From Cryobacterium aureum (GTDB lineage: Bacteria > Actinomycetota > Actinomycetes > Actinomycetales > Microbacteriaceae), in the NCBI RefSeq assembly GCF_002954245.1, contig NZ_PPTG01000035.1, positions 1,542 to 65,541 of the forward strand: a stretch of DNA of 64,000 bases, read 5' to 3'. The position numbers were made by a program, and so were the translations under genes. Every line of letters begins with the position of its first letter. Positions within the stretch are counted from its first letter, which is position 1. Shown one piece after another: positions 22,243 to 57,930 of the stretch. The notes beneath the pieces were generated by a model. That model had not been told where the DNA came from and made no database searches. It worked only from the letters and a program-made list of their open reading frames with translations.

Positions 22243-22263
22243 GATTGCTTTTCTTACCTTTGA

Positions 22264-22277: not shown

Positions 22278-22287
22278 TGGGTGCCGG

Positions 22288-25279: not shown

Positions 25280-25329
25280 GAGTATTTCCTTTCGTAGTGC
25301 AAAGTGGAAGTGGAAAGTTTGTGAGCCGG

Positions 25330-26499: not shown

Positions 26500-26521
26500 G
26501 GATTTTGTCCTTGAGATCGGG

Positions 26522-27685
26522 TTAGCGGGTGAAGACAGATTCACCGCGGGAGACAGTGGAGGTTATGACCAGCTCGCTCTGGCAAGCGGTCTCGTCCCAG
26601 CGATAGGTGAACAGGTCGGCCGGTCCCCCGACACGCAACGTGCCCACACCGGAATCAGCCAGGCCGAATAGTTCAGCCGGGTGCAAGGAAGCCATGTCAA
26701 TTGCTTGACGGAGCGGCGCGATCCTGAAGTTCGCAATGTTCTCAACGCCGCCGCGCAACGTCCCAGCGGAGCCCGCCAGAATGTCCGGGGTAGACGCCAA
26801 GTGCAAGCGCCCGTCCGGCTCTAGGACGACCTCGGTCGCATGGTGCGTGGTGTACCGGCCGGGGGTCATCCGAGCGAGATACGAGGCGTCACTGGTGAGG
26901 ATCGCCTTTCGGCCCTTGCTTCGGATCATGACCTTCAGGGTGGTCGGCGGGAGGTGGAAGCCGTCGGCGATCAACCCGGCCCACAACTCGTCCTCAGCCA
27001 GCTGGGCCCAGATGTAATTGGGATGGCGTTTGATGTAGGCGTGGGCGCCATTGCCGAGGTGTGTCGACATCGTTGCACCGGCGTGGACCGCAGCCTGAAT
27101 GTCTTCGACACTGGCCGCACTGTGGCCAATCGCCGCCACGACTCCGTGCTCGCAGAGCCTCTCGATGAATTCAATCGCGCCCACCTTTTCTGGCGCCACG
27201 GTGACCGTCCTGATCCGGCCTTCGGCAGCGGCTTGCCATTCCAAGAACTCGTCCCAGTCGGGGTCCCTGATCCAGGCGGCGTTATGTGCACCGCGCGGGC
27301 CATCTTCGTAGGAGATGAACGGTCCCTCGATATGGATTCCCAGGACCGAATAATCGATCAGTGAATCGGAAGTACAGGCATCGGTCACCGCCCGAATACT
27401 GGTCACCATCGCTGCCTGGGTTCCCGTGACAATGGTCGGGCAGAATCGGGTTACGCCTTCTCGGTGCAGAGCCTGCAGGGTGCCACGAACGTTTTCAGGA
27501 GAGGCACTACCACCGTTGAGGTTGAAGCCGCCCATTCCGTTGACCTGAATGTCAATCAGGCCCGGAGCGATCCACTCTTCGCAAGTTTCCCTCCTCGGCT
27601 TGATCGCGCTGATCAAGCCGTCGACGGCCGAGACCGTGACGCATTCGCCGGTCAACCAATTCTTGCCTGCCCATTCACGGACCAT
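26522..27685 (-). CDS. Divergent NagA-like amidohydrolase (paralogue)
   Basis: A 387-residue member of the NagA-type amidohydrolases that differs from its neighbour. The first metal motif is IQVNGMGG (no HxH, as in E. coli NagA), with HIEGPFISYEDGPRGAHN, AAIGHSAASVEDI, MSTHLGNGAHAYIKRHPNYI, IADGFHLPPTTLK and LTSDASYLARMTPGRY. The THLGNGAH...RHPNYIW block and the altered catalytic-Asp loop mark a sub-family usually annotated as NagA but not shown to act on GlcNAc-6-P. The ATG at 27685 follows GAAGGGAA. It may deacetylate another N-acyl sugar phosphate supplied by the adjacent transporter; this is inference. Confidence 0.82.
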   Translation of the reverse strand: MVREWAGKNWLTGECVTVSAVDGLISAIKPRRETCEEWIAPGLIDIQVNGMGGFNLNGGSASPENVRGTLQALHREGVTRFCPTIVTGTQAAMVTSIRAVTDACTSDSLIDYSVLGIHIEGPFISYEDGPRGAHNAAWIRDPDWDEFLEWQAAAEGRIRTVTVAPEKVGAIEFIERLCEHGVVAAIGHSAASVEDIQAAVHAGATMSTHLGNGAHAYIKRHPNYIWAQLAEDELWAGLIADGFHLPPTTLKVMIRSKGRKAILTSDASYLARMTPGRYTTHHATEVVLEPDGRLHLASTPDILAGSAGTLRGGVENIANFRIAPLRQAIDMASLHPAELFGLADSGVGTLRVGGPADLFTYRWDETACQSELVITSTVSRGESVFTR

Positions 27686-27730
27686 GCAGTTCCCTTCTTC
27701 TGCTGCCGAACCGAGTGCTGACTTCGGGCA

Positions 27731-27790
27731 GGACACCGCCTGGTTACATGCCCCCGTCGCACCCGGTTCAGCATGCCCGAGGCGGTGTCC
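27731..27790. other. Intercistronic hairpin in the sugar operon
   Basis: The 141-bp gap between the binding-protein gene and the second NagA-like gene contains a perfect 10-bp inverted repeat GGACACCGCC/GGCGGTGTCC (11 bp with the flanking T-A) around a ~40-nt loop that itself can fold. No T-run follows on the minus strand. It may act as a processing or partial termination site that keeps binding-protein transcript above enzyme transcript. Confidence 0.45.
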
Positions 27791-27826
27791 CGCTTCTGTA
27801 CGGTCAGCCGCCGACGCGGCCGTCCC

Positions 27827-29128
27827 CTACTCGGAGTCCTTGTTTGCGTCCTCGATCAATTTCTCAAGATCGGCCAGAAATGTGTCGAGGTCGATAGCGT
27901 CGGTCAGATATTCCTGGAGCAGCTGCTTGCCGGTCACCTGAATTTCAGGGAGATCGCGATACATGGGAGCCGGCTCAGAAATTTTCACGAGGTCGTACAT
28001 CGATGTTTTCCAGGGAGCGTCGATCTTGTCGAAGTGCTCCTCTATGACGGGCAGCTTGCCCCATTCTTCGCCCACGGCAACCTGGATGTCGGACATCATG
28101 GCTTCCTGGATGAACTGCAGGGCGAGTTCCTGATTTTCGGAGGCGCTCGGAACGAGGATTCCGGCCGTGAAACCATAGGATCCGTTTTCGGCAGAGCCGG
28201 GCATTGCCAGTACCACCGAGTTCTCCGCACCGATCGTGGGGATTGCTTCGGGAACGTGTGCGGCGGTTTCCAGTACCATCGGGATGTTGCCGGCGTTGAA
28301 GTTGCTCCGGCCGGCGTCTTTGTTGGAGAAGGTGTCGATGGAAAACACTCCCTCCTCGACGCCCTTCTTCCAGATCTCCAAGACATCGCGCATTTCAGGC
28401 GTGTCGAAAGTGAGAACGTCATCCTCATAGAAGCTTCCCCTGACCGCCTGCTCCACAGCAATCATGGTATTCACGGCGTTTGGACCCCATTGAATCGTCA
28501 TTCCCGGCCGAGTGACCGTACTGCCGTCCCTAAGAGTCATTGCTGCGGCCATGTCGTATAGGTCGTCCCAGGTCTGAGGCGCGGGGATTTCGCCGTCGAC
28601 GCCGACGAGGCCCGCTTCTTCGAAGTAGGACTTGTTGGCGCTGATGTTATAGGTTTCGAGGCCAATCGGGATGGCGAACTGCACGTCGCCCAGTTGGTCG
28701 AAGGACAGCGATTCACCGACAAATTTCTCCTTAGCCGTTGCTCCTTCGAAGAAGTCTGTCTCGTTGAAGTCGATGATCAGGTCCTTGGCCAGAAACTGCA
28801 CGGCTACGGAAGCGCCATCGACGACGACGACGTCCTGGCTGGATTTGCCTTGACTCCATTGGAGGGCGAAGTTCGACAGCGACTGGTTGTCCGGATATTC
28901 AACAACGTTGACCGTGACACCTTCGTTGGCGGCTTCGAAATTGTCCACCATGTCATTCATGTGGAATTTCTCGATCATCCACGCCTGAGCCGCAACGTTG
29001 ATCGAGGTCGACTTCGGCCCAGACTTGGACTCGCCTTTCGAGCCGCCACCTGCGGCACAGCCCGTGGCGACCAGCGCCACCGCCGAGCCGAACGCGATCA
29101 GCATTGCGACTTTGCTTTGCCTTTTCAT
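27827..29128 (-). CDS. Sugar ABC transporter substrate-binding lipoprotein
   Basis: A 433-residue extracellular solute-binding protein of family 1. The N-terminal lipobox LVATGC fixes it to the outer face of the membrane through Cys24. A Gly/Ser/Lys-rich spacer follows, then a typical bilobal domain with VTVNVVEYPDN, DVVVVDGASVA, VQFAIPIGLETYNI, PAPQTWDDLYDMAAAM and FNAGNIPMVLE. SD AAAGG precedes the ATG. It is transcribed after the two permease genes, an uncommon order. No ATPase gene is in the cluster, so an MsiK-type shared ATPase elsewhere is expected. Likely cargo is an oligosaccharide containing amino sugar and/or uronic acid, inferred only from neighbours. Confidence 0.9.
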   Translation of the reverse strand: MKRQSKVAMLIAFGSAVALVATGCAAGGGSKGESKSGPKSTSINVAAQAWMIEKFHMNDMVDNFEAANEGVTVNVVEYPDNQSLSNFALQWSQGKSSQDVVVVDGASVAVQFLAKDLIIDFNETDFFEGATAKEKFVGESLSFDQLGDVQFAIPIGLETYNISANKSYFEEAGLVGVDGEIPAPQTWDDLYDMAAAMTLRDGSTVTRPGMTIQWGPNAVNTMIAVEQAVRGSFYEDDVLTFDTPEMRDVLEIWKKGVEEGVFSIDTFSNKDAGRSNFNAGNIPMVLETAAHVPEAIPTIGAENSVVLAMPGSAENGSYGFTAGILVPSASENQELALQFIQEAMMSDIQVAVGEEWGKLPVIEEHFDKIDAPWKTSMYDLVKISEPAPMYRDLPEIQVTGKQLLQEYLTDAIDLDTFLADLEKLIEDANKDSE

Positions 29129-29195
29129 TGATTCTTACCTTTCGTTTGGGAAACTCATAAAACGGTCCATCGACGGCCAGAGCGGCACAGGTGCA

Positions 29196-30023
29196 TTACC
29201 CCTTGACCGCACCCTGTGCGATTCCAGCCACAATGTGGCGCTGGAAGGCGATGAAGACGATGATGGGCGGAAGCGTGGCCAGCACGATGACGGCCGCGAG
29301 TACTCCGTACTGCCAGACCTCACCCTTTAATAGGGTGAGACCGACCGAGAGCGGCATCGCCGGGGGATCAATGGCAAGCGTTTTGGCCAAGGTGTATTCA
29401 CCCCAGACGTTGTAGCTGGTGATGATCGTGACCAGGACTATGCCATTCCTAGCCATGGGCAGCATGATCCGCCACCATCTGGCGAACACCCCAGCCCCGT
29501 CCATGGTCGCGGATTCTTCGATCTCGTGCGGAATGGCCATGAAGGTCGCCCGCATGATGAGAATGGCGAAAGGCAGGGCAACAGCGACGTTCGGCAGGAT
29601 CAGTCCCAGGTTTGTATTCAGCAAGCCAAGCTCGTTCTCCAGCAGGAACATTGGAACCAGGAGAATGACGAGCGGGACAGTCAGCGTGCCGACAATGGCT
29701 AATAGGAGAATGTTCGCGCCGCGGAATGGAAGCTTGGCGAAGCCATAACCGGCGAGGGAACTGAGTACGACGACTAGGGTGACGGAGACGATAGTGATGA
29801 TAAAGGTGTTTGCGAAATATTCCGCGAAACGACTTTCTGCCACTGCCGCATAGTTTTCCAGCGTCCACTCCTTGGGTAAGAAGCTCTGTGGCACCTGGAA
29901 GATTTCATCTGCTGACTTGAAGGAATTGAGCAGAATGTAAACCAGCGGAGCCAGGAATACGATCGCGAGCAGAAGAAGAACCCCGTGAATCCACAGCCTG
30001 GAAAAAATAGAACCCCTTACCAC
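29196..30023 (-). CDS. Carbohydrate ABC transporter permease (MalG type)
   Basis: A 275-residue inner-membrane permease with six membrane segments. It has the EAA loop EIEESATMDGAGVFARWW ending in MLPMARNG, which docks the ATPase, and the MalG-type start with PLVYILLNSFKSADEIFQ. The GTG at 30023 is the likely start. It pairs with the larger permease gene upstream (15-bp gap) and the binding protein downstream (67-bp gap). The short C-terminus QRHIVAGIAQGAVKG is typical of MalG-type subunits. Confidence 0.92.
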   Translation of the reverse strand: MVRGSIFSRLWIHGVLLLLAIVFLAPLVYILLNSFKSADEIFQVPQSFLPKEWTLENYAAVAESRFAEYFANTFIITIVSVTLVVVLSSLAGYGFAKLPFRGANILLLAIVGTLTVPLVILLVPMFLLENELGLLNTNLGLILPNVAVALPFAILIMRATFMAIPHEIEESATMDGAGVFARWWRIMLPMARNGIVLVTIITSYNVWGEYTLAKTLAIDPPAMPLSVGLTLLKGEVWQYGVLAAVIVLATLPPIIVFIAFQRHIVAGIAQGAVKG

Positions 30024-30038
30024 GACAAGCCTCGCATT

Positions 30039-31058
30039 CTAAGCATTCTTATCTCCGGCCTTGCGAAGGAACAGAAAGTTGAGCACGATCAGTACCAGGA
30101 TGATCAGCCCCAGAATGTAGCCCATAGCCGATGCGTACCCCATATCGAAATACGTGAAGGCCGTGAGATACACCTGCTGATATAACACCAGGGTGCTGGT
30201 TCCTGGGCCGCCATCGGTCATTACCATAGGCTCGACAAAGACCTTGAGGGCATGAAGGATGCCCCAAGTCGCGGTCAAAATGTAGGTCTCTCTCAAGTTC
30301 GGCAGGAGGATATAGAAGATCTTCTTGAAGCCTCGCGCCCCGTCCAACTCGGCGGCTTCCAGGGTGTCCGGATCGATGGACTGCAAGCCGGCGAGAAAGA
30401 GTATGGTCTCAAAACCGATCGTGGCCCATAGGGACAGCGCGATGATTGAGCCCATTGCGGTGTCGCTCTGGCTCAACCATGGTTGGACCAGGAATGGCAG
30501 GTTGAAGACGTCGCCCAACAGGTAGTTGAGAAGGCCATAGTTCGGCTGGAGGATCCATAGAAACACCAGCCCAGCAAGCGAGAGAGGAACAACCAATGGG
30601 ACGAACACGGCGCTTCGGTAGAACGAATTGAAGCGAATTTTCTGGAACAGAAACAAGGCGATGCTGAGCGATGCCACGATCAAGATAATGAAGAAGAAGA
30701 AGCCAAAGACAAACGTGTTTGTCAGGCTCGTGACGAACTGTGGATCCTCGAACGCCGAGACGTAGTTGTCCAGGCCGACGAACGTGGGGTCATCGTCATA
30801 GACGAAGTTGTATTCGGTCAGGCTCATATACCCAGACGACACCAGCGGGTAGAGCATGAAGACGAAGATGAAGAGCAGTGCCGGCAGGATGAACAGAAAG
30901 CCGACCGACCGACCGGTGCGTCGACTCCTGATTTTCTTGCGTCTGACTGCGCCTTGGCCAGCGAGCGGCGGCCGCCTTAGTCTGGGAGGAGACGTTTCTG
31001 TCGCGACGAGGCCCATCGGTCGCTCAGCGCCGAAGCGAGCATAGGGCCCGACTGCCAT
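30039..31058 (-). CDS. Sugar ABC transporter permease (MalF type)
   Basis: A 339-residue inner-membrane permease; after a basic ~50-residue cytoplasmic N-terminus it has six membrane segments beginning VGFLFILPALLFIFVFML. The EAA loop is TLEAAELDGARGFKKIFY ending in LLPNL. SLTEYNFV and FVGLDNYVSAF are typical MalF-family stretches. No strong ribosome site precedes the ATG at 31058; an internal ATG 15 codons later is another possible start. It is the first gene of the long minus-strand transport and catabolic run; the 151-bp leader upstream holds the probable promoter. Confidence 0.9.
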   Translation of the reverse strand: MAVGPYARFGAERPMGLVATETSPPRLRRPPLAGQGAVRRKKIRSRRTGRSVGFLFILPALLFIFVFMLYPLVSSGYMSLTEYNFVYDDDPTFVGLDNYVSAFEDPQFVTSLTNTFVFGFFFFIILIVASLSIALFLFQKIRFNSFYRSAVFVPLVVPLSLAGLVFLWILQPNYGLLNYLLGDVFNLPFLVQPWLSQSDTAMGSIIALSLWATIGFETILFLAGLQSIDPDTLEAAELDGARGFKKIFYILLPNLRETYILTATWGILHALKVFVEPMVMTDGGPGTSTLVLYQQVYLTAFTYFDMGYASAMGYILGLIILVLIVLNFLFLRKAGDKNA

Positions 31059-31159
31059 GGACGGTGTCAGCGTTTAGCTTGACTGCATAGTGCACGAAAT
31101 TCCCCCTGCATATCTGTGGCGAAGTGTGGCGCGTCCGATGATGCGCTTACCTCCGACTG

Positions 31160-31205
31160 TAAGGCAAAAAAGCATACTTATCTAGTGATTGCCAGCCATT
31201 GAGTG
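31160..31205 (-). promoter_or_regulatory. Candidate promoter/operator of the sugar ABC operon
   Basis: On the minus strand this leader reads CACTCAAT, then 13 bases, then TAGATAAGTATGCTTTTTT, an AT-rich block suited to a -10 region about 110 bp upstream of the first permease gene. The CACTCAAT and TAGATA...TATGCTTT elements recur in the same order in front of the second gluconokinase gene. The direct repeat AGTGAT also flanks the site. Confidence 0.35.
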
Positions 31206-31209
31206 ATAC

Positions 31210-32013
31210 TTATTGGTGACCGGGTGACTTTTGGATGAAATCGCCACTCCCGTGCGGAGCAGCCCAGATAGTGCTCATTTCGTCCATGGTCCGTTGCATG
31301 ATGCCCAACATCGAGCGCTGCGCAATATCAGGCGCACCCCGTTGAATGGCGGAGGCGACATCCACGTGCAATTGAAGCGCTTCCTCGTGGGGATGCGTGG
31401 GCATGAGGCCATAGTGCGTACGACCAGCCAACACTTCGGAGATCAGGCTCTCCAGTTTCGCGAACATTTCGTTTCCGGAGCTTGCAAGGACTAGGCGGTG
31501 GAATTGGATATCCAGAGTGAGAAATAACTCTTGGTCACCGGACTCGCCAGCCGCCCACAACCGGCCAGCAAGTCCCATCAGGTCGCTCGCGCTGGAGAGG
31601 GGCGAGCGGAGGGCCGCAAGTCTGGCCGCTTCCGGCTCAATGGCCGTCCGCAGCTCTGTGAGTGATCGCAATTGGGTAATCTGCGCACGTGAAGCCAAAC
31701 GCCACCGAATGACTTGAGGGTCAAAGAGATTCCATTCGCTGGGTGGACGGACCAACACACCAACGCGACGCTTGGATGAAACCAGACCCATCGACTCCAG
31801 CACACGCAGGGTTTCTCGAATAACCGATCGAGAAACCCCGTATTGCCGTTCGATATCTTCAATCTTCATTACCGATCCGGTGGCCAGTGCCTGATCGCAC
31901 AGTGCCAGGCCGAGTTGCTCCAGGACGCGGGCATGGAGGCCTGAGCCGACCGCCGCCGGCACGGCCACCTCGGGGGGGCCGTGCAATTTCTTCGTAGTAT
32001 CTCCCACGTTCAA
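31210..32013 (-). CDS. FadR/GntR family transcriptional regulator
   Basis: A 267-residue regulator. The winged-helix domain (residues ~25-95) has MKIEDIERQYGVSRSVIRE and LRVLESMGLVSSKRRVGVLV. The C-terminal FCD domain follows, with LRTAIEPEAARLAA, TLDIQFHRLVLASSGNEMF and the metal-binding Asp/His pattern. FCD regulators commonly sense uronates, gluconate or other acids, which suits the cluster. The annotated TTG at 32013 has no clear ribosome site; a GTG at 32007 or a leaderless transcript is possible. It is divergent to gntK-galM and upstream of the ABC operon, so it could control both. Confidence 0.88.
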   Translation of the reverse strand: MNVGDTTKKLHGPPEVAVPAAVGSGLHARVLEQLGLALCDQALATGSVMKIEDIERQYGVSRSVIRETLRVLESMGLVSSKRRVGVLVRPPSEWNLFDPQVIRWRLASRAQITQLRSLTELRTAIEPEAARLAALRSPLSSASDLMGLAGRLWAAGESGDQELFLTLDIQFHRLVLASSGNEMFAKLESLISEVLAGRTHYGLMPTHPHEEALQLHVDVASAIQRGAPDIAQRSMLGIMQRTMDEMSTIWAAPHGSGDFIQKSPGHQ

Positions 32014-32019
32014 ATCATA

Positions 32020-32047
32020 TTGGAACCAGCACTCAATTGTTTAGATA
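32020..32047 (+). promoter_or_regulatory. Candidate promoter with embedded operator for gntK2-galM
   Basis: TTGGAA, 16 bases, TAGATA form a plausible sigma-70-type promoter about 60 bp upstream of the gluconokinase ATG. The -35 overlaps the small palindrome TGGAACCA, and CACTCAAT, shared with two other control regions of the cluster, lies inside the spacer, a good position for a repressor. The regulator gene diverges from here. Confidence 0.4.
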
Positions 32048-32108
32048 TGCTTTATTCGTCTTTCCTCACCTGAGGCGGGCGGGAGCCGCAAGAATTGCAG
32101 AGGCGGGC

Positions 32109-32675
32109 ATGAAGCAGACCGAAGAAATTCAATCGATTGTCGTAATGGGAGTCTCTGGCTCTGGCAAGAGCACGGTTGGCGTACTCTTGGCCAGGTCATT
32201 GAACTTCGAGTTCTTCGACGCGGATCGACTACATCCAGCCGACAACATTGCGAAGATGGCGACGGGTCGTGCGCTCACGGATGCCGAGCGGGAGCCATGG
32301 CTGCACGCTGTGGGTGGCTACCTCGCCCACGCACGCAAGTCCGATGGCGGCCTCGTTGTCGCCTGCTCCGCCTTGAGACGGGCGTACCGCGACATTCTCC
32401 GTAAGCATGTTGCCGACGCGTACTTTGTTTTTCTGGATGGAGAACAGGAGATCGTTCAAGATCGAATTGTTCGTCGAGTTCACGATTTCATGCCGCCGTC
32501 TCTGCTCGCATCCCAATTTGAGATCCTTGAGCCGCTTGAAGCCGACGAGTACGGAATCTGCGCCGACATATTGCTGGCCCCACTCGACGTCGTCGACGTG
32601 ATTACAGCCCAGCTCCATCCGACATCGAAGAGACCTGTGGTGATCGCAAAGGGACTCGGTCGGGCTCTCCCATGA
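32109..32675 (+). CDS. gntK: Gluconokinase (second copy)
   Basis: A 188-residue gluconate kinase: P-loop VVMGVSGSGKSTVGVL, FFDADRLHPADNIAKM, GRALTDAEREPWL, VVACSALRRAYRDIL, and the lid VHDFMPPSLLASQFE. It parallels the copy at 20.4 kb but is clearly divergent, so this is not a recent duplication. The ATG at 32109 follows AGGCGGG; the frame remains open upstream to 32037. The stop overlaps the galM start (ATGA). 6-phosphogluconate made here is the substrate of Gnd, encoded two genes downstream on the same strand. Confidence 0.92.
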   Translation: MKQTEEIQSIVVMGVSGSGKSTVGVLLARSLNFEFFDADRLHPADNIAKMATGRALTDAEREPWLHAVGGYLAHARKSDGGLVVACSALRRAYRDILRKHVADAYFVFLDGEQEIVQDRIVRRVHDFMPPSLLASQFEILEPLEADEYGICADILLAPLDVVDVITAQLHPTSKRPVVIAKGLGRALP

Positions 32676-33778
32676 TCAACCTGGCGACGATTGGTACTTT
32701 CACTTTCGGCCATCTGCCCGACGGCCGACCAGTTAAGGCCTTTCGATTGACAAACCAAACCGGTGCACGGGCTGTGATTCTCGCGTATGGCGGAATCCTG
32801 CAGTCATTCGGAACCCTCGACGTCGCGGAAAAATTCGACAATCTTGCCCTCGGATTCCATTCATTGCCAGCCTATCTCAATCAGACCAGATATTTCGGGG
32901 CGGTCATAGGCCGACATGCGGGACGTATCCCGAATGGAATTTTTTACTTAGACGACAAGGAATACCGGGTGCCGTTGAACAGCCCACCGCATAGCAAACA
33001 TGGTGGGTTCTCGGGCTTCGACAAGAAGCTGTGGTCAGCCGAGAGCTTTCGAACATCCAACAGTTCTTGTGTCCGGCTCGAATACACCAGTGCAGACGGT
33101 GAGGAGGGGTACCCGGGAGAACTACGCACAGCAGTCACGTACCGTCTCCTTGACCACGAGGACACCCTGCGTGTGGAGTATGAGGCAACCACTGACCAGC
33201 CAACGATCGTCAGCCTCACGAATCATTCCTATTTCAACTTGGCCGGCGAAGGAAACGGGTCGATCCTCGATCACGAGTTGCGTCTGAACGCAGACCATTA
33301 CCTCCCCATCGGAAAAGATCTCAATCCCCTGGCTGGCCTCGCACCGGTGGCAGGAACATCACTCGACTTCACCTCACCCCATCGCATCGGTGAGAGAATC
33401 AGGGACGATTCGGACCAGATGCGCTGGGGCCGCGGCTACGATCACAACTTTGCTGTCAATGGCGAGCCGAGTGCAATAAACTTTGCTGCCCGGGTCGTTG
33501 AACCAACGTCCCGGCGCACCCTGGAGCTATGGACTACGGAGCCGGACCTCGTCTTCTACACAGCAAATCTCTTGGACGGAAGCATTGTCGGCACTTCAGG
33601 GCGTGCGTACCGGTCGGCAGACGGGTTTGCGCTAGAACCCAAGCGATTCTCTGATCCAAAACATCGCCCGAATTTTCCCGGAAATGTGCTGCGTCCCGGC
33701 GATACCTATCTCTCTACGACCGAATACCGCTTCGCCAGAGTACCCATTGATCTGGATCTCTGGAACGAATCTCGATAG
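32672..33778 (+). CDS. galM: Aldose 1-epimerase (mutarotase)
   Basis: Interconverts the alpha and beta anomers of free aldoses. The 368-residue protein has the family's beta-sandwich motifs: ILAYGGILQSF, VIGRHAGRI, HSKHGGFSGFDKKLW with the substrate His, VSLTNHSYFNLAGEG with the catalytic His, the DHNFAV strand, and FALEPKRFSDPKHRPNFP carrying the catalytic Glu region. It is coupled to the gluconokinase gene by an ATGA overlap. A mutarotase in a sugar-acid cluster suggests that neutral or amino sugars also come in through the transporter. Confidence 0.92.
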   Translation: MINLATIGTFTFGHLPDGRPVKAFRLTNQTGARAVILAYGGILQSFGTLDVAEKFDNLALGFHSLPAYLNQTRYFGAVIGRHAGRIPNGIFYLDDKEYRVPLNSPPHSKHGGFSGFDKKLWSAESFRTSNSSCVRLEYTSADGEEGYPGELRTAVTYRLLDHEDTLRVEYEATTDQPTIVSLTNHSYFNLAGEGNGSILDHELRLNADHYLPIGKDLNPLAGLAPVAGTSLDFTSPHRIGERIRDDSDQMRWGRGYDHNFAVNGEPSAINFAARVVEPTSRRTLELWTTEPDLVFYTANLLDGSIVGTSGRAYRSADGFALEPKRFSDPKHRPNFPGNVLRPGDTYLSTTEYRFARVPIDLDLWNESR

Positions 33779-33876
33779 CGGCATGCCGGTAACCCTCCCG
33801 ACACCGTGATGTATCAAGACACGATCGGCGGGTAGCCTTGTAAGCGGTTGGAAAAATATCAATGCAAGGAGAAAAC

Positions 33877-35334
33877 GTGTCAGAGTCCGTTTCAGCACAG
33901 GCAAATATTGGTGTCGTCGGTCTGGCGGTGATGGGCTCGAACCTCGCACGCAACCTCGCCGGCCGCGAGGGAAACACCGTGGCGGTCTACAACCGCTCCC
34001 CCGAACGAACCCGCCTGCTCACGACCGAGCACCCCGAGGCGAACTTTGTCGCCTCAGAGGACATCGCCGGCTTCGTCGCCTCCCTGACGAAGCCGCGAAC
34101 CGCCATCATTATGGTGCAGGCTGGCCGCGGAACCGACGCCGTCATCTCGCAGCTCTCCGAGCTGTTCGAGCCCGGCGACATTATCGTCGACGGCGGCAAC
34201 GCCGAATTCACCGACACCATCCGTCGCGAAAAGGAACAGAGCGCCAAGGGCCTCAACTTCGTCGGTGCCGGCATCTCCGGTGGCGAAGAGGGTGCCCTCA
34301 ACGGCCCGAGCATCATGCCCGGCGGTTCGGTGGAGGCCTACAAGACCCTCGGCCCCATCCTTGAGTCCATCGCCGCCGTCGTCGACGGTGTGCCCTGCGT
34401 CACCCACATCGGCACCGACGGCGCCGGCCACTTCGTCAAGATGATCCACAATGGCATCGAATACGCTGACATGCAGCTCATCGCCGAAGCCTACGACCTG
34501 CTGCGCAGGGTTGGCGGGCACTCCCCCGAGGCCATCGCCGACGTCTTTACTGACTGGAACAGTGGGGAGCTTAACAGCTACCTGATCGAGATCACCGCGG
34601 AGATTCTGCGCCAGGTTGACGCGAAGACCGGCAAGCCGTTCATCGACGTGGTGCTCGACGAGGCCGGCTCCAAGGGAACGGGCGTCTGGACCGTTCAGAA
34701 CGCGCTCGACCTCGGCGTTCCCGTCGGCGGTATCGCCGAGGCCGTCTTCGCCCGCGCCGTTTCCAGCCACCCGGAGCAGCGCGGTCCCGTGCGCGCGACG
34801 CTCTTGGCCCGGCCCGAAATTGCCATTGTGGGAGACACCTTCCAGGAAGATGTGCGCCAGGCGCTCTACGCCTCGAAGATCGTCGCCTACGCGCAGGGTT
34901 TCGACGCGATCATCGCCGGCGCGAAGAAGTACGGCTGGAGCATCGACAAGGGCGCAATCGCCACTATCTGGCGCGGTGGCTGCATCATTCGCGCTCAGTT
35001 CCTCAACCGCATCGTGGATGCCTACAACAACGACCCGTCCATCCCGAGTCTGCTCGTCGACCCGTACTTCGCCGAGGCCGTTGCCTCCGGTGAGGCAGCC
35101 TGGCGCCGCGTGGTTTCGACCGCAGCGCTGTCGGGCATCCCGGTTCCCGGCTTTGGCTCAAGCCTGAGCTACTTCGACTCGCTCGCAAGTGAACGCCTGC
35201 CGGCCGCCCTGGTGCAGGGTCAACGCGACTTCTTCGGAGCGCACACCTACCACCGCGTGGACATGCCCGGCACCTTCCACACCCTGTGGTCCGGCGACCG
35301 CACCGAGATCGCCACCGAGGCGTCGACGCACTGA
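33877..35334 (+). CDS. gnd: 6-phosphogluconate dehydrogenase (decarboxylating)
   Basis: Oxidises 6-phosphogluconate to ribulose-5-phosphate and CO2 with NADP+. The 485-residue homodimer type shows IGVVGLAVMGSNLARNLA, MVQAGRGTDAVI, VDGGNAEFTDTI, GAGISGGEEGALNGPSIM, FVKMIHNGIEYADMQLI with the catalytic Lys, and the C-terminal HTYHRVDMPGTFHTLW. The GTG at 33877 is chosen for the AAGGAG five bases upstream; an ATG at 33862 is less well placed. Its codon use is strongly GC-biased, like core genes, whereas the sugar genes just before it look more AT-rich, so gnd may be resident and mark the island border. Confidence 0.95.
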   Translation: MSESVSAQANIGVVGLAVMGSNLARNLAGREGNTVAVYNRSPERTRLLTTEHPEANFVASEDIAGFVASLTKPRTAIIMVQAGRGTDAVISQLSELFEPGDIIVDGGNAEFTDTIRREKEQSAKGLNFVGAGISGGEEGALNGPSIMPGGSVEAYKTLGPILESIAAVVDGVPCVTHIGTDGAGHFVKMIHNGIEYADMQLIAEAYDLLRRVGGHSPEAIADVFTDWNSGELNSYLIEITAEILRQVDAKTGKPFIDVVLDEAGSKGTGVWTVQNALDLGVPVGGIAEAVFARAVSSHPEQRGPVRATLLARPEIAIVGDTFQEDVRQALYASKIVAYAQGFDAIIAGAKKYGWSIDKGAIATIWRGGCIIRAQFLNRIVDAYNNDPSIPSLLVDPYFAEAVASGEAAWRRVVSTAALSGIPVPGFGSSLSYFDSLASERLPAALVQGQRDFFGAHTYHRVDMPGTFHTLWSGDRTEIATEASTH

Positions 35335-49358: not shown

Positions 49359-50237
49359 TCAACGCTGAGGAAGACTCGGATATTCCGGTTTTTTCGCGGA
49401 AGAACCGCCCAAACCGGGGCCTGCCTTGGCCTGTAGCGCGTGCTCATACAGCTCACGCTTGCCGAGGCCGCTCGCCGCCGACACGTCGGCCGCGGCATCC
49501 TTCAAGCGGATGCCGCCAGCCACCAGGTCGAGCACCTCAGCCACACCCATGGCCAGGTCAATTACCCGCACCTCGGCACCGGCCACCACGATGCAGATCT
49601 CGCCGCGCACGCCGGCTGCCGCCCATTCGGCCAGCTCGGCCGCTGTGCCGCGCTTGACCTCTTCGAAGAATTTGGTCAGTTCCCGGCAGACCACGACGCG
49701 GCGGTCGTCGCCGAGTGTGGCGGCGAGGTCGAGGAGGGAGTCAGCGAGGCGGTTGGGCGATTCGAAGAAAACCATGGTGCGGCGTTCCGCAGCGAGGTCG
49801 CGCAGCTGCTTGACCCGCTCACCGTGCTTCCGCGGCAGGAACCCTTCGAAGGTGAACCGGTCGGTCGGAAGCCCCGAGACGGCGAGAGCGGTGAGCACGG
49901 CGGACGGGCCGGGCAGGGCGGTGACCTGCACGCCGGCAGCCACCGCGGCATCCACCAGGTGAAAACCCGGGTCAGACACGGTGGGCATGCCGGCGTCGCT
50001 CAACACCAGGATGTCGACCTCGCGGGCCAGCTCGACCAGCTCAGCGGCCTTGCCGCGTTCGTTGTGGTCGTGCAGGGCGATGAGCTTGGGCCGGTTTTCG
50101 ATTCCGAGGGCTTTGAGCAGGTGTACGGTGACGCGGGTGTCCTCGGCCGCCACGATGGTGATGGTACTCAGGGTCTCGATCAGGCGCCGGGAGGCGTCGC
50201 CGAGGTTTCCGATCGGGGTGGCAGCAAGGATGATCAT
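49359..50237 (-). CDS. rsmI: 16S rRNA (cytidine-1402-2'-O)-methyltransferase RsmI
   Basis: Methylates C1402 in the ribosomal P site. The tetrapyrrole-methylase fold begins IILAATPIGNLGDASRRLIE, followed by VAAEDTRVT, LHDHNERGKA, LVLSDAGMPTVSDPGF, the SAM loop VTALPGPSAVLTALAVSGL and FEGFLPRK. The ATG at 50237 is placed right before the fold; the open frame upstream adds only non-conserved residues. The 292-residue length is usual. It is divergent to the mannosyltransferase gene, 39 bp away, the common arrangement in Actinobacteria. Confidence 0.95.
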   Translation of the reverse strand: MIILAATPIGNLGDASRRLIETLSTITIVAAEDTRVTVHLLKALGIENRPKLIALHDHNERGKAAELVELAREVDILVLSDAGMPTVSDPGFHLVDAAVAAGVQVTALPGPSAVLTALAVSGLPTDRFTFEGFLPRKHGERVKQLRDLAAERRTMVFFESPNRLADSLLDLAATLGDDRRVVVCRELTKFFEEVKRGTAAELAEWAAAGVRGEICIVVAGAEVRVIDLAMGVAEVLDLVAGGIRLKDAAADVSAASGLGKRELYEHALQAKAGPGLGGSSAKKPEYPSLPQR

Positions 50238-50276
50238 GGGTCCAGTCTCGCAGTCGCCGCTCAGTACGATGGTCAG

Positions 50277-51851
50277 GTGCTGGCAACTAGTCGATGGGTT
50301 CACTGGATTCGCTGGATGCACTGGGGCGCGCCCCTCCTCGTGGTCCTGTTGGCCGCCGGCTTACGTCTATGGAACCTCGGCGTGCCGCACGCGCTCGTGT
50401 TCGACGAGACCTTCTATGTGAAGGATGCCTGGACTCTCTTCAACAACGGGTACGAGTCCACCTGGCCGGCCGACACCAATCCCCTGTTCGAGGCGGGGCA
50501 GACCGACATCTTCACGACGGATCCGTCGTTCGTGGTGCACCCGCCGCTCGGCAAATGGCTCATCGCCCTCGGCATGAACCTGCTCGGCCCCGGCAACCCG
50601 TGGGGCTGGCGCCTGGCCACCGTTGTGGTCGGGGTGCTCGCGGTCGTGCTCATCATGCTCATCGCTCGAAAGCTGTTTCAGTCCCGTCTGCTGGCCTTGA
50701 TCGCCGGTTTTCTGCTCGCCATCGACGGTCACGCCATCGTCATGAGTCGGGTTGCCCTGCTCGACAACTTCGTGATGTTCTTCGCGCTTCTCGGCTTCGG
50801 AGCGATCCTGATGGATCGGCAGTGGCACGCGACGCGCCTGGCCGCCCGGCTGGTCGGGCTGATCGACGTCGGCTGGGGCCCGACCCTGTGGTGGCGGCCC
50901 TGGTTGCTCGCCGCCGGTCTCGCGTTCGGGCTGACCAGTTCGGTGAAGTGGTCGGGGCTGTACTTTCTGGCCGCTTTCGGCGTCTACCTCGTCGTCGTCG
51001 ACGCGCTCGCCCGGCGCCGTAACGGCGTGACGTTCTGGGCCAGTGCCGCCATCCTGAAGCAGGCCCCGGTCACGTTCCTGCTCCTGGTCCCCGTGGCCGT
51101 CATTACCTTTCTGGTGTCCTGGACGGGATGGTTCGTTACCCGCGGCGGCTATTACCGAGAGTGGGCCGACGGGGTGGGAGCGGCCTGGACCGGACCGCTG
51201 GCCTGGGTTCCGCACACCCTGCAAAGTTTCTGGCACTACCAGGCGGCCGCGTACACCTACCATGTGGGCCTCGCCACGCCGCATCCGTACCAGGCCAATC
51301 CGCTGACCTGGCTGTTCATGATTCGCCCGACCAGCATGTACTACCGCGGTTCCAGTCAGGGCGAATTCGGATGCCAGTTTCAGAACTGCTCCGAGGCCAT
51401 CACGTCGGTCGGCAACCCGCTGATCTGGTGGGCGGCGACCGCCGCGCTGTTCTACCTGGTGTATCGACTGGCCCGTTACCGGGAATGGCGCGTCGGCCTC
51501 ATTCTCATGGGCATGGTCGCCGGCTACCTGCCCTGGCTGATGTACCTGAACCGCACGGTTTTTCAGTTTTACACCATCGCCTTCGAACCCTATCTGCTGC
51601 TCGGCCTCGTGTTCGTCATCGGCATGTCCCTCAAGCAAATTCCCGACCTGGCGGGGCCAGAACACCGGCATTCAGCACATTCGCAGGTGTACGAACATGA
51701 CCCCCACCCGCGGGCCGGAGCCCTTAGCGCCGTGATCGTCGGCCTCGGGGTGGCGCTGCTGCTGACCGCGTTCTTCTTCCCTGAATGGACCGGAATGCAG
51801 ACTTCGTTCACGTTTTGGCAGCTCCACATTTGGATGCCAAGTTGGCGATAG
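50277..51851 (+). CDS. Protein O-mannosyltransferase (dolichyl-phosphate-mannose type, PMT)
   Basis: A polytopic membrane glycosyltransferase that moves mannose from polyprenyl-phosphate-mannose to Ser/Thr of exported proteins. After the first membrane segment comes HALVFDETFYVKDAW with the catalytic Asp-Glu pair. FVVHPPLGKWLIALGM, DGHAIVMSRVALLDNFVMFF and the loop FMIRPTSMYYRG are PMT hallmarks. About ten further membrane segments follow. The GTG at 50277 is the best start that does not run into rsmI; its ribosome site is weak and the cytoplasmic N-terminus would be only ~12 residues, shorter than usual. The product is about 524 residues. Exported Pro/Thr-rich proteins nearby, such as the LysM lipoprotein, could be substrates. 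Confidence 0.9.
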   Translation: MLATSRWVHWIRWMHWGAPLLVVLLAAGLRLWNLGVPHALVFDETFYVKDAWTLFNNGYESTWPADTNPLFEAGQTDIFTTDPSFVVHPPLGKWLIALGMNLLGPGNPWGWRLATVVVGVLAVVLIMLIARKLFQSRLLALIAGFLLAIDGHAIVMSRVALLDNFVMFFALLGFGAILMDRQWHATRLAARLVGLIDVGWGPTLWWRPWLLAAGLAFGLTSSVKWSGLYFLAAFGVYLVVVDALARRRNGVTFWASAAILKQAPVTFLLLVPVAVITFLVSWTGWFVTRGGYYREWADGVGAAWTGPLAWVPHTLQSFWHYQAAAYTYHVGLATPHPYQANPLTWLFMIRPTSMYYRGSSQGEFGCQFQNCSEAITSVGNPLIWWAATAALFYLVYRLARYREWRVGLILMGMVAGYLPWLMYLNRTVFQFYTIAFEPYLLLGLVFVIGMSLKQIPDLAGPEHRHSAHSQVYEHDPHPRAGALSAVIVGLGVALLLTAFFFPEWTGMQTSFTFWQLHIWMPSWR

Positions 51852-53245: not shown

Positions 53246-53857
53246 ATGTTCGTGGCAGGTGGCACCGAGCGAGGTCTGATTGGATTCACGAGTCTCGCCC
53301 TGGCCATTGGGTTGGTCGCCGTGCTCTCGCCGGCGGCGAGCGCCGACACCTCCACCGACACGGTCAATCTGGCGATTCTCGGCGGAGCGCTCTCCGCCGT
53401 GGTCTCCGCACCAACTCAGATGACCCCCGTCGTTCTCGACGGACGTACCAGCCACACGTCGGTCGGCAGCCCCACCGAGTGGACCATCACGAATGCTCGC
53501 GGTTCCAGTGCAGCGTGGAGTCTGTCGGTGAGCGCCACGGACTTCGTGAGCGCTGCCGGAACTCTCGACGCCCAGGAACGCACCGTCGCCGTGGAAAACC
53601 TGACCATCACGCCCGGAATCGTCACGGCCCGCACCAGCGCAGGTACCGATGCCGCCCCGACGACCAAGCCCGTTTCCGTCTCCGGCCAACCGCAGGCGCT
53701 GGTCTGGACCAACACACTGGGCAAAGGGACCTTCACGCTGACCCCCAAATTCAGTCTCAGCGTTCCCCCGAACGCCTACCGGTCGAATTTCTCGGGCGCG
53801 ATCGACGAATCCCCCGTGAACCCGTTCGTCTCTGTACTCACGTTCACGATCGTCTGA
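53246..53857 (+). CDS. WxL-like domain surface protein
   Basis: A 203-residue secreted protein. A signal peptide ends near PAASA-DT. The rest is one WxL-like domain: WTITNARGSSAAWSLSVSA (first W-x-L as WSL), a mid region VENLTITPGIVTA, and a C-terminal strand set FSLSVPPNAYRSNFSGAI to the FTIV end. The second W-x-L motif is not canonical. WxL domains bind peptidoglycan non-covalently at the cell surface. It closely resembles the small protein at 57.3 kb. The ATG at 53246 has G-rich sequence too close to serve as a good ribosome site; a GTG near 53204 is an alternative start. Confidence 0.8.
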   Translation: MFVAGGTERGLIGFTSLALAIGLVAVLSPAASADTSTDTVNLAILGGALSAVVSAPTQMTPVVLDGRTSHTSVGSPTEWTITNARGSSAAWSLSVSATDFVSAAGTLDAQERTVAVENLTITPGIVTARTSAGTDAAPTTKPVSVSGQPQALVWTNTLGKGTFTLTPKFSLSVPPNAYRSNFSGAIDESPVNPFVSVLTFTIV

Positions 53858-53984
53858 CGCGCATCTCGCGCGAACCTTGATCCAATACTGACTGGAACAC
53901 TGGCCCCGATCTGAGGCCCCCGTGTGAGAATAGCGTTATTGCCTCATTCGGGGGTCATACCGGATACCAAAAAAGATCCACCCC

Positions 53985-55081
53985 ATGTCACACCGTTCCA
54001 CCATCCGTCGCCTAATCTGCACGCCGCAGGCCACACCAGATTCGACCCGGAAACCGGTTCGGGCACGTCCGATCCGCAGGCTCGCCCTCCTGGTGGCTGT
54101 CGCCGTTCTGGGCCCGGTGTTCGCTACCCTCGCCGTCGTCTCACCGGCAGCCGCGATCGACGACGGAACCCTCAGCATCCGCCCCGAACTGGAATCTGAC
54201 TTTTTTCACATCAATCTTGCTCCCGGCGCCGCGATCGAAGCCAACGCCATCGTCAGTAACCACACGGATGCCCCGGTCACGCTTCTGAGTTACGCGGTCG
54301 ACGGACAGAGCACCCAGCAGGGCGCCTTCGCCCTTGCCGCCCAGAACGACGTGCAAACGAGTGTGGGCAGCTGGGTCACTCTCGGTGCAGAATCAATCAC
54401 CATTCCGGCCAACTCCGACCTCACCGTGCCGTTTCGACTGAGCGTTCCCCTCACGGCGACACCGGGCGACTATGCCGGCGGAATCATCATTCAGAGTCCG
54501 CCCATACAGGGTGAGACGACCACATCTGACGGTGATGCGGCGCTGCGCCTGGACGTCATCCAGCGGCAGGGCGTGCGCATCTACCTGAACGTTGCCGGCA
54601 CGGCGATAACTCGGCTGGGCCACGGCGACCTGAGCTGGGAACGCGTGGGTGACGAGGTCACGTTCACCCTGCCGATTCAGAACACGGGAAACACAATCCT
54701 GTATCCGACCGCCAGCCTGGACCTGAACAGTGTGATCGGGGCCACCACCGAGCTGCAATTCGCGACGCCGGAGAGCATCCTGCCGGGGGCCACTCTCAAC
54801 CTCGAGGCAACATTGCCGCAGGCTGCATTCATTTAGCTTGGCGACGCCGACGCCCAACTGGTCTCCGCTGCCGGAACTGAGCGGGTCAGCACGACGTTCA
54901 ACGACGTGCCGTGGTGGATCGTTCTGATCCTGCTGCTGGTGGTGGCCGTGATCGCCTTCGGTGCCTGGCGCGCCACGCTGTTCGTGCGGCGCGCCGCCTG
55001 GCCTTCGCGCAGGTCGCCCAGACGGAGCTTCCGGTGAGCGATTCGGAGACCGACGCTTCCCAGCGTCGACCAGTGCGATGA
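53985..55081 (+). pseudogene. DUF916-like WxL-interacting protein, interrupted by a stop and a frameshift
   Basis: The first 283 codons encode a secreted protein: a signal peptide ending near PAAA-ID, then LSIRPELESDFFHINLAPGA, a DUF916-like immunoglobulin domain (IVSNHTDAPVTLLSYAVDG), and a second domain with GDYAGGIIIQSPP and QRQGVRIYLNVAG. An in-frame TAG at 54834-54836 follows QAAFI. Directly after it the same frame continues with LGDADAQLVSAAG and a membrane anchor (WWIVLILLLVVAVIAFGAW). Near 54990-54997 the frame shifts: the better frame then reads RRLAFAQVAQTELPVSDSE and ends at a TGA overlapping the next ATG (ATGA). The intact ancestor would be ~365 residues. Either it is dead, or there are two sequence errors. 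Confidence 0.72.
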
Positions 55082-57093
55082 CGACGACGCACCTGCCCCG
55101 ACGCCGCGCACGGCGGTCGGGGGGCCGCCGAACACACCTCATTGCGTTGCCGGCATTGACGATTCTTCTGCTGCTGGCCGGCTTGTTCGTGCCGCAGCCG
55201 GCGGCCGAGGCAGCCACCGCCACGGTTGATCTCAAAACGGCCGGCAGCTACTCCGTGCTGGCCACGGACGCCATCGCGAGCACCGGCAACAGCGCCCTGA
55301 GCGGCAACGCCGGAACCAGCCCGGGAACGGCGATCACCGGATTCCCCCCTGGAATTCTCACCGGCAGCATCCACGGCGGCGACAGCCACGCCACGGTCGC
55401 TCAGGCCGACCTCGTCGCCGCCTACACCGATGCGGCCGGACGGGTGCCGACCGGTACCGTAGCCGGCGACCTGGCCGGGCGCACACTCACGGCCGGCGTC
55501 TACAAATCCACTGCGGCGCTCGCCGTGAGCACAACGCTGACCCTCGACGCGCAGAACGACCCCACCGCAGTGTTCATCTTTCAGATCGACGCGGCGTTCG
55601 ACACCGCAGCGGCCAGCAGTATAGTGCTTGCCAACGGCGCCCAGGCCTCGAACGTGTTCTGGCAGGTGGTCGGTGCGGTCTCCCTTGGCGCCAATTCGGC
55701 TTTCACCGGAACGATTCTCGGCCGTGCCGCGATCTCGATCGGGGCCGGTGCCAGCTTCACCGGCCGCGCGCTGACCTCCAGCGGTGCCATCGCCATGGCC
55801 AGCAACATTTTCATGACCGAGCCGCCGCTCAACCTGCGAACCGCCGGCAATTATTCGGTGCTGGCCGGGACATCCGTTGTGAATTCGGGCGGTACCATCC
55901 TGAGCGGCTTTCTCGGGGTGAGTCCGGGCACCGGCCTGACCGGTTTTCCGCCTGGTCTGGTCACCGGCAGCACTCACCTCGGCACGGCCGAGAGCGCCCA
56001 GGCTCAGCTCGACCTGCAGTCCGCCAGTAACGATGCGCTCGCGCGCCGGCCCACCCACTCGGTCGCCAACACCGGGAACTCGTCGTTCGACGGTGATATC
56101 GGAGTGAGCCCCGGAACGGCGGTCACCGGGTTTCCGCCCGGGGAGCTTACGGGCACCATTCGCGGCGGCGACGCGGCGGCGGCGACCGCACAGGTCGACC
56201 TCGCCGCAGCGTACAAGGATGCCGCGGCGCGGCCGGCCAGCGCCGCCATCTCCGGCGACCTGGCCGGCCGCACCCTCACCTCCGGGGTCTATAAGGCGGC
56301 TGCCGCCCTCGCCATCAGCACCACGCTCACCCTCGATGGACAGGGCAACCCGAACGCCATCTTCATCATCCAAGTGGATGCCGCCTTCAACACGGCCGCT
56401 GGCAGCAGCATCATCCTGACTAACGGAGCACAGGCGTCGCGGGTCTACTGGCAGATCGCCGGCGCGGTGTCACTGAGGGCGGCATCCGCTTTCACCGGAA
56501 CCATCATCGGCATGGCCGCGATCTCGATTGGGGCCGGCGTCAGCTACGTCGGGCGGGCGCTGACCGCCAACGGCGCCGTCAGCATGAGCACGGCGAGTTC
56601 CACCAGTCCGGTGCCGGCCGCCGGCGACCTCACCGCGACGACCGCGGGCGCAACACTGTCAGCGGTGACCCTGCTGGGCACCCAGCCGCAGTTCGCCACG
56701 GGCGTGTCGAGCCAGTGGTCGATCGTCGACGCGCGGGGAACCGGAGCGGCCTGGACCCTCTCGGTGAGCGCAACCGCGCCGACCAGCGCGGCCGGTACGG
56801 TCGAAACCAACGAGCGCGTGCTGCCGGTGGAGAACCTCGCCATCGCGCCGGGCGCCATCACGACCGGCCCCAATACCGATGCCGCGACCGGCATCAGCGC
56901 GCCGACGCTGGCGCTGTCGGCCGCACCGCAAACCCTGATCGCCACGTCGGGCCCGAACCGGGGCACCTACTTGCTGACGCCGACCTACAGCCTGATGATT
57001 CCGGCTAATGCGTACCGGTCGAATTACGCGGGCGCCATCGACGCCTCAACGATGAACCCCAACGTGACGGTGCTTACCTTCACCATTTCGTAG
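55078..57093 (+). CDS. Ice-binding (DUF3494) protein with C-terminal WxL-like domain
   Basis: A 671-residue secreted protein. A basic n-region and signal peptide run to residue ~45. Domain 1 (about 49-250) is a complete DUF3494 ice-binding beta-solenoid: LKTAGSYSVLATDAI, GTSPGTAITGFPPG, GDLAGRTLTAGVYK, AVFIFQIDAAF and GRAAISIGAGASFTGRAL. A partial repeat (251-327) has only the first third of such a domain. Domain 3 (328-505) lacks its first ~20 residues but is otherwise complete. Residues ~513-671 form a WxL-like domain (DARGTGAAWTLSVSA, IPANAYRSNYAGAI). It should be held on the cell wall and bind ice. It is coupled to the broken partner gene upstream. Confidence 0.88.
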   Translation: MTTTHLPRRRARRSGGRRTHLIALPALTILLLLAGLFVPQPAAEAATATVDLKTAGSYSVLATDAIASTGNSALSGNAGTSPGTAITGFPPGILTGSIHGGDSHATVAQADLVAAYTDAAGRVPTGTVAGDLAGRTLTAGVYKSTAALAVSTTLTLDAQNDPTAVFIFQIDAAFDTAAASSIVLANGAQASNVFWQVVGAVSLGANSAFTGTILGRAAISIGAGASFTGRALTSSGAIAMASNIFMTEPPLNLRTAGNYSVLAGTSVVNSGGTILSGFLGVSPGTGLTGFPPGLVTGSTHLGTAESAQAQLDLQSASNDALARRPTHSVANTGNSSFDGDIGVSPGTAVTGFPPGELTGTIRGGDAAAATAQVDLAAAYKDAAARPASAAISGDLAGRTLTSGVYKAAAALAISTTLTLDGQGNPNAIFIIQVDAAFNTAAGSSIILTNGAQASRVYWQIAGAVSLRAASAFTGTIIGMAAISIGAGVSYVGRALTANGAVSMSTASSTSPVPAAGDLTATTAGATLSAVTLLGTQPQFATGVSSQWSIVDARGTGAAWTLSVSATAPTSAAGTVETNERVLPVENLAIAPGAITTGPNTDAATGISAPTLALSAAPQTLIATSGPNRGTYLLTPTYSLMIPANAYRSNYAGAIDASTMNPNVTVLTFTIS

Positions 57094-57342
57094 CCGATCC
57101 GAGCGTGCGCCAACCCCCATTCTGGGCATTGCGCCAACCTTGAGCTAACGCTGATTCAACCCTGCGCGACGAACCCCCTATTTGCGCGCCCCCGTGTAAG
57201 GATTGATTTATCGCCACCGGAACTTAGTTTTCAACGGATAACGAGTTCGGTTCATAGCCTGCGACATCCGCTTCTCCCACACTTCGCGTGGACACGCTAT
57301 TTGGCGTGCCCGCACCACCAGCACCACCTCAGAGGACACACC

Positions 57343-57930
57343 ATGCACGCTTTCACCAAGACCGCGGGAATCATCGTCGCCACCGGCATCCTGTTCGGTG
57401 TGGCCCTCTCCCCCGCCCAGGCAGTCGTCAGTGCGGACACCATCCAAGCGACCATCACCGCCGGCAACCTCACCGCCAACCCCACCGCGCCCGACGCGAT
57501 GACCGCGGTGGTTCTCGACGGCGTGAACGCGCAGTCGCCCACCGGAACCGCGCCCACCTGGACCATCACCAACGCCCGCGGCACGAACGCCGCCTGGTCG
57601 CTCTCGGCCAGCGCCACCGACTTCGTCAGCGCGGCCGGCACGGTCGACACGACCGCCCGCACCCTGCCGGCGTCCAACCTGGTCATTACGCCGGGCACCA
57701 TTACCGCCGGCACCGGTTCCGACGCGGCTCCCACCGCCGAGGCCGTCACCATCAGCAACGTCGCCCAGTCGCTGGTGTACACCACCACCCTCGGCAAGGG
57801 CACCTTCACCCTCGCGCCGACCTTCAACCTGAGCGTTCCAGCCAACACCTACCGCTCCAATTTCTCGGCCGCGATCGGCAGCACCGCCGTCAACCCCTAC
57901 GTATCGACCATCACGTTCACCATCGCGTAG
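57343..57930 (+). CDS. WxL-like domain surface protein
   Basis: A 195-residue secreted protein. The ATG at 57343 follows AGAGGA; a signal peptide ends near PAQA-VV. The mature part is one WxL-like domain nearly parallel to the protein at 53.2 kb: WTITNARGTNAAWSLSASA, TDFVSAAGT, LVITPGTITAG, TTLGKGTFTLAPTFNL and NTYRSNFSAAI. Its shortness implies it is only an anchoring or capping unit, perhaps binding a partner. The 249-bp gap upstream shows no gene. Two hairpins end the locus. Confidence 0.82.
   Translation: MHAFTKTAGIIVATGILFGVALSPAQAVVSADTIQATITAGNLTANPTAPDAMTAVVLDGVNAQSPTGTAPTWTITNARGTNAAWSLSASATDFVSAAGTVDTTARTLPASNLVITPGTITAGTGSDAAPTAEAVTISNVAQSLVYTTTLGKGTFTLAPTFNLSVPANTYRSNFSAAIGSTAVNPYVSTITFTIA

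Follow-up and report, generated by a model that had tools for sequence, protein, structure and literature searches.

Positions 53246-57930 of the 64,000-nucleotide stretch of Cryobacterium aureum DNA analysed here (the window) hold a four-gene cluster that probably encodes a WxL-cluster complex, the intact form of which would display DUF3494 ice-binding domains at the cell surface and the window copy of which appears to be decaying. DUF3494 proteins bind ice, and their use to the cell, as secreted protectant or as tether, is debated. The locus joins two subjects, DUF3494 ice-binding proteins and WxL clusters, that share no paper in the literature searched. WxL domains bind peptidoglycan non-covalently, with Lactobacillales and Bacillales as their main holders (PMC5817068), and two further accounts place them almost entirely in these two orders (PMC10599100, PMC9772566). 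According to the latter, large WxL proteins have variable N-terminal domains and the WxL-interacting protein, WxLIP, ends in a membrane helix; the membrane-anchored WxLIP is proposed to hold WxL proteins, and strand pairing is reported for an enterococcal pair (PMC10599100).

The WxL cluster and its surroundings

The cluster genes, all on the forward strand, follow the order small WxL, WxLIP (PF06030), DUF3494-WxL fusion and small WxL. The first (53246-53857, start codon uncertain) encodes a small WxL-like protein that aligns with the other two WxL-like domains and scores 19.1 bits against PF13731, below the cut-off of 25. The WxLIP (53985-54836) matches PF06030 (WxLIP_PGBD) with 39.5 bits, above the cut-off of 27.3, and terminates at an in-frame stop ahead of its membrane helix. 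The stand-alone small WxL protein that closes the cluster (57343-57930) reaches 29.7 bits against PF13731, above the cut-off of 25. One WxLIP and three WxL-like genes make this locus a WxL cluster if WxL-like is counted as WxL. The PGBD (PF06030) was matched at E ≤ 1 by all 13 WxLIPs of alignment A3; the HBD (DUF3324) was matched by none of the 13 and is not among the 14 families matched at E ≤ 1.

Upstream of the cluster lie genes for a PMT-family mannosyltransferase and a fatty acid desaturase, and downstream lies the serine dehydratase gene sdaA. The PMT-family protein mannosyltransferase (window 50181-51848) is found near the cluster in 11 of 15 Cryobacterium stretches, some of which end earlier; as a speculation, the Thr/Ser-rich solenoids could be its substrates. 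The strain's own genome contains three PF13731 matches, all within the cluster, and five PF11999 matches at three places, three of them in the fusion gene and the others in frames of 327 residues and of at least 781 residues, the latter with Ig-like repeats. Elsewhere in the window, positions 21004-35331 have a lower GC content, down to 0.56 at 28-34 kb, and hold a set of genes for sugar-acid catabolism and ABC transport (enolase-type racemase, tagaturonate epimerase, amidohydrolase, solute-binding protein, two permeases, aldose epimerase and 6-phosphogluconate dehydrogenase).

Domain architecture of the DUF3494-WxL protein

The large WxL protein, delineated by Pfam, phmmer and translation, is encoded by a reading frame on the forward strand that is open from the ATG at 55078 to the stop at 57093 and yields 671 residues. 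It matches PF11999 (Ice_binding) with 368.8 bits over three stretches, above the cut-off of 28.7. DUF3494 domain 1 is complete (55198-55812; phmmer match, Pfam residues 60-243), domain 2 is reduced to an N-terminal remnant (55828-56058; phmmer and alignments with relatives) and domain 3 is devoid of its N-terminal edge (56059-56592; phmmer and alignment A5). The original prediction, which described one full DUF3494 domain, a fragment of a second and a third without its N-terminal edge, was therefore correct by Pfam, by phmmer and by alignment with relatives. It had also proposed a search with the Pfam DUF3494 and WxL profiles, in which only DUF3494 passed the cut-off: the C-terminal domain (56602-57090) scores 18.3 bits against PF13731 within the whole protein and 21.2 bits in isolation, below the cut-off of 25. 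Pfam by itself thus gives the WxL call only below threshold, and the WxL-like reading of the C-terminus is secured by gene context, through the adjacent small WxL and WxLIP genes.

The C-terminal domain is 47% identical to the downstream small WxL protein, and 29 of the 31 aligned WxL-like domains match PF13731 at E ≤ 1. The first Trp-x-Leu motif is present in the window domain; it is strict in 27 of the 31, all of which have the Trp. At the distal motif Trp occurs in 0/31, Phe, Tyr or Val standing there, and Leu is retained in 30/31. Given a distal motif without Trp and WxLIPs without DUF3324, the domain would best be named WxL-like and the cluster a variant, and peptidoglycan or partner binding may not carry over from the Firmicutes.

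Structural models

The isolated WxL-like domain was modelled as a beta protein with a pLDDT of 88.0 and a pTM of 0.81, for which Foldseek returned no PDB match at E ≤ 1e-3. The best VIA-align result was the pilus adhesin 6k73_C (Z of 7.5, rmsd of 3.5 over 125 residues), tied with many pilin-type sandwiches, and a Z below 8 may reflect merely a common arrangement. A donor-strand or fibre model for the domain was considered and not adopted. Searching PDB sequences with the first three-row WxL profile gave no match.

For the full chain, the model has a pLDDT of 72.8 and a pTM of 0.39, so that the arrangement of the domains is not fixed by it. Averaged over ten residues, pLDDT is 42-75 in the domain 2 remnant and 53-58 directly past the junction; domain 3 has a core with 84-94. 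Foldseek matched the model to 32 structures at E ≤ 1e-3, 31 of them ice-binding proteins and the remaining one a phage tailspike; the matches include 6eio (41% identity) and 7bwy_A (TM of 0.96, target). The anticipated beta-solenoids are thus predicted with the fold of known ice-binding proteins; the anticipated C-terminal beta-sandwich is predicted as beta, its likeness to known sandwiches going no further than the Z quoted above.

Recurrence in related genomes

DUF3494 was detected in 53 of 120 related genomes, 46 of these 53 being among the 57 of the genus. A WxL-like profile, built from 31 domains that all come from the window or same-genus loci and hence circular for those members, matched 21/57 Cryobacterium genomes and 13/299 genomes of the family sample. 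The other 36 of the 57 Cryobacterium genomes gave no match to the profile, so that the system is dispensable for cold life.

Thirteen same-genus loci were fetched because of three tandem DUF3494 matches. All 13 carry three DUF3494 domains and the WxL-like domain in one frame, with a WxLIP gene adjoining and a small WxL gene downstream; in L048 a stop splits the former and the latter is partial. In ten, the upstream side holds a small WxL gene that is closest to the first gene of the window cluster; upstream in L045 are a different WxL gene and a one-domain fusion, and no upstream small WxL was seen in the fetched loci L046 and L049. One-domain fusions occur in G035 and G015 and as a second copy in G038. 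Window included, the fusion is found in 16 of the 57 genus genomes, 13 of the others having the three-domain and two the one-domain form. Outside the genus, nine family-sample genomes have a WxL-like match, three with a three-domain fusion (G298, G381, G241) and six without. The search for the same architecture in other genomes that had been proposed with the original prediction was therefore positive in 13 further genus genomes and three beyond it, and a chance or artefactual origin of the fusion was rejected on this recurrence.

A scan of named genomes, whose loci largely repeat the genus and family sample genomes and are not independent of them, covered 21 loci. The fusion is present in 14 (13 from Cryobacterium, one from a Microbacteriaceae MAG; 12 three-domain, two one-domain) and absent from seven, which include Arthrobacter and Amnibacterium, both with a WxL-like gene and WxLIP, and one Firmicute, Gordonibacillus. 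The Gordonibacillus kamchatkensis locus (L122 6309-7929), found with the actinobacterial-type pattern, has WxL and WxLIP matches of 26.9 and 51.3 bits. In wider samples, WxL-like matches were obtained in 11/396 phylum and 13/297 order genomes, the strain's own genome being part of each count and two other genus members part of the second; DUF3494 was seen at none of the 18 such loci scanned, in stretches of about 2.2-3.5 kb that cut long proteins. A further locus (L051 3321-6889), set aside from the comparison, has a weak WxLIP-like gene (38 bits) next to a frame of 837 residues; this frame combines Ig-like repeats with two DUF3494 domains and has no WxL-like domain.

Lesions in the window copy

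Compared with its relatives, the window fusion lacks one 139-column block that is present in all 12 relatives of alignment A5. At the nucleotide level the gap is 417 bp, in frame, against two of the three relatives compared, and 167 + 250 against the third, with the junction at 56058/56059 on the forward strand, its place ambiguous by about 20 bases. The fragmentary domain 2 and the edgeless domain 3 flank this one deletion and are the scar of a three-domain protein, the ice-binding arm being short by about 0.7 of a domain's length. Assembly collapse is a less likely source of the gap: an in-register collapse would not be expected to join the two domains at different depths, as happens at this junction.

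The partner WxLIP is also broken. At its stop (54834-54836) the other 12 rows of A3, an alignment that left out L048, whose own WxLIP is broken, continue into a hydrophobic segment; membrane-helix and signal-like features, these segments included, were judged by eye. The window WxLIP has no C-terminal membrane helix, as the helix lies beyond the stop: the tail (54837-55077, forward strand), no longer translated, carries the sequence for the hydrophobic helix, still in frame, and after it a one-base frameshift (near 54994) that appears as a gap in all three comparisons with relatives. In 11 of 12 relatives the WxLIP stop overlaps the fusion start (seven ATGA, one GTGA, three TGATG), the exception being L115, where the WxLIP frame has only 287 residues. 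Such an overlap would couple translation of the two proteins; in the window, 241 bases separate the early stop from the fusion start, so that translational coupling to the fusion gene has probably been lost.

Private changes in the window fusion gene comprise 17 replacements and 23 silent changes (ratio 0.74; 0.65-1.71 in six relatives), those in its WxLIP 12 and 11 (relatives 0.20-1.30), and comparing the window fusion with six relatives gives pairwise omega values of 0.12-0.21. Neither private changes nor omega show relaxed selection in this copy, and the lesions thus look recent. The system in the window strain appears to have begun to break down, its copy decaying; with a WxLIP devoid of its helix and a shortened arm, its function would be reduced or lost. 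The original reading of the architecture stands, having overlooked the membership in a WxL cluster, the deletion scar of a three-domain protein and the broken partner.

Chromosomal site, decay and possible exchange of arms

All 15 Cryobacterium stretches compared contain sdaA (a broken or weak copy in L041 and L088), and 14, all but L044, contain the desaturase. A mobile locus within the genus was rejected, as the stretches share a single chromosomal site between desaturase and sdaA; phage carriage was likewise dismissed, one scan of viral contigs having yielded no relative. Neither sdaA nor desaturase was seen at the loci outside the genus (L093-L095), which makes transfer between genera possible.

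Eight desaturase sites were examined in genomes without the fusion. Four are empty (G014, G044, G042, G009), with 76-411 bases from desaturase to sdaA and no match between them; G020 and G049 retain only pieces of small WxL; in G016 some 3 kb gave no match; and the stretch from G002 contains no sdaA. Small WxL remnants between desaturase and sdaA were located at L197 2775-3050, where sdaA is only partly matched, and at L198 5179-5427. Decay recurs in L048, with its nonsense codon in the WxLIP and partial small WxL.

A tree was calculated for 40 DUF3494 domains, drawn from the window, nine of the 16 intact three-domain loci known, three one-domain fusions and eight unfused domains; it has a midpoint root, 13 open inner forks and one unfused row on a long branch. 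A branch with 98/99 support separates the one-domain fusions, together with four of the unfused domains, from all three-domain arms, together with the other four; both fusion types occupy the same chromosomal site beside sdaA. Unfused domains on both sides of the branch imply two fusions, or one fusion plus an exchange of arms, and hence at least two occasions on which the DUF3494 arm was gained or swapped. Four further genomes of this family (G122, G163, G181, G294; loci L098, L099, L101, L102) have the WxLIP next to large proteins whose C-terminal WxL-like match is weak (24-34 bits), and Pfam scans identified the heads in six of eight such frames as peptidase S15 with PepX_C (four) or peptidase M64 (two). 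Large WxL proteins with peptidases in place of DUF3494 are as expected of a display platform.

Proposed function

In intact relatives, the membrane-anchored WxLIP and the small WxL proteins would assemble into a platform on the peptidoglycan, which the large WxL protein would join through its C-terminal WxL-like domain. Its three DUF3494 beta-solenoids would be held outward from this platform, probably to expose their ice-binding faces on the cell, which might thereby stick to ice or restrain ice at its wall. In the window strain, what is left of domains 2 and 3 has been joined by the deletion, and the WxLIP has lost both its membrane helix and the stop-start overlap. The data show the anatomy, gene neighbourhood, recurrence, two fusion types and lesions; from them we infer ice binding, wall binding, complex formation, lowered expression and sticking to ice. 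A broader formulation, that Cryobacterium and its relatives turned the WxL platform into an ice tether at least twice, giving a complex anchored in both wall and membrane with a DUF3494 stack as its exchangeable arm, is plausible and held more tentatively, at somewhat less than even weight.

The strongest challenge concerns the window copy itself, which might be a pseudogene in progress without function, whatever its role in relatives; we place this only just short of an even chance. The nonsense codon and frameshift in the WxLIP and the 417-bp deletion in the fusion suggest as much, as do the similarly damaged L048, the remnants in G020 and G049 and the empty sites in four genomes, yet the fusion frame is open, its deletion is in frame, its private changes (17/23, ratio 0.74) give no sign of relaxed selection, and WxL proteins may attach without a WxLIP. 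The window WxLIP devoid of its helix would equally suit a mostly released protectant that inhibits ice recrystallisation in brine or biofilm, its WxL-like domain serving loose association or folding. There are reports of WxL proteins in culture medium as well as on the cell surface (PMC5817068), and an Arctic Ocean survey saw hardly any evidence that DUF3494 proteins serve mainly as tethers (PMC9957290). Most relatives nevertheless keep the WxL-like domain, a WxLIP with its helix and the stop-start overlap, and the fusion to WxL arose or was exchanged twice, so that release as the main role seems unlikely.

Lastly, the target of the solenoids might not be ice but, for example, polysaccharide or other cells. 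Firmicutes WxL clusters are described as host-attachment devices (PMC10599100), and the ice-binding face of the present solenoids is putative. The close structural and sequence match to solved ice-binding proteins argues against such a general adhesin, as does the origin of 13 of the 14 fusion loci of the named-genome scan from Cryobacterium, a genus described as cryospheric (PMC10067761), and we regard it as distinctly improbable. Display of ice-binding modules on the wall of a high-GC Gram-positive is still the most likely reading of these data. The broader formulation of a twice-made ice tether, if true, would represent an ice-adhesion system built into the Gram-positive cell wall, with the holding of a host replaced by the holding of ice. 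Apparently intact clusters in named Cryobacterium species, among them C. suzukii (L105) with an intact three-domain arm, permit a genetic test of whether the DUF3494 protein tethers cells to ice, and the occurrence of peptidase and ice-binding heads on the same kind of platform suggests a general display role for WxL clusters in Actinomycetota.

Comparison with known systems

The original prediction knew of no described case of a DUF3494-WxL architecture, and none was found in open-licence PMC full texts, where neither DUF3494 with WxL nor ice-binding with WxL co-occurs in the texts searched and where, for DUF3494 with peptidoglycan, the DUF3494 passage was unrelated. Among individual proteins, Subtercola vilae, from the same bacterial family, has DUF3494 proteins of 380-389 residues with a part for which no match is reported (PMC6518244); the available portions of that report mention neither WxL nor a cluster, and the likeness is drawn from their description. 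Tandem DUF3494 domains are shared with the two-domain protein of PDB 5uyt and with the triple-domain proteins of the Arctic survey, which includes Actinobacteria (PMC9957290) and in whose text the term WxL is absent. Unlike these multi-domain proteins, the one described here is joined to a WxL-like domain inside a WxL cluster. The peptidase-bearing clusters of G122, G163, G181 and G294 share the WxLIP and the weak C-terminal WxL-like match and differ in their heads (S15, M64).

The closest parallel is offered by the WxL clusters of Firmicutes, as far as they are set out in the available portions of PMC10599100 and PMC9772566. The likeness extends to adjacent genes for small WxL, large WxL with a C-terminal WxL domain and WxLIP, and to a WxLIP with a signal-like N-terminus and, in intact relatives, a C-terminal membrane helix. 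In contrast to those clusters, the present one has an Actinomycetota host, a DUF3494 arm, a distal motif without Trp and a WxLIP without a DUF3324 match. The locus is thus a variant of the WxL clusters, a type itself known mainly from gut bacteria, with an ice-binding outward arm.
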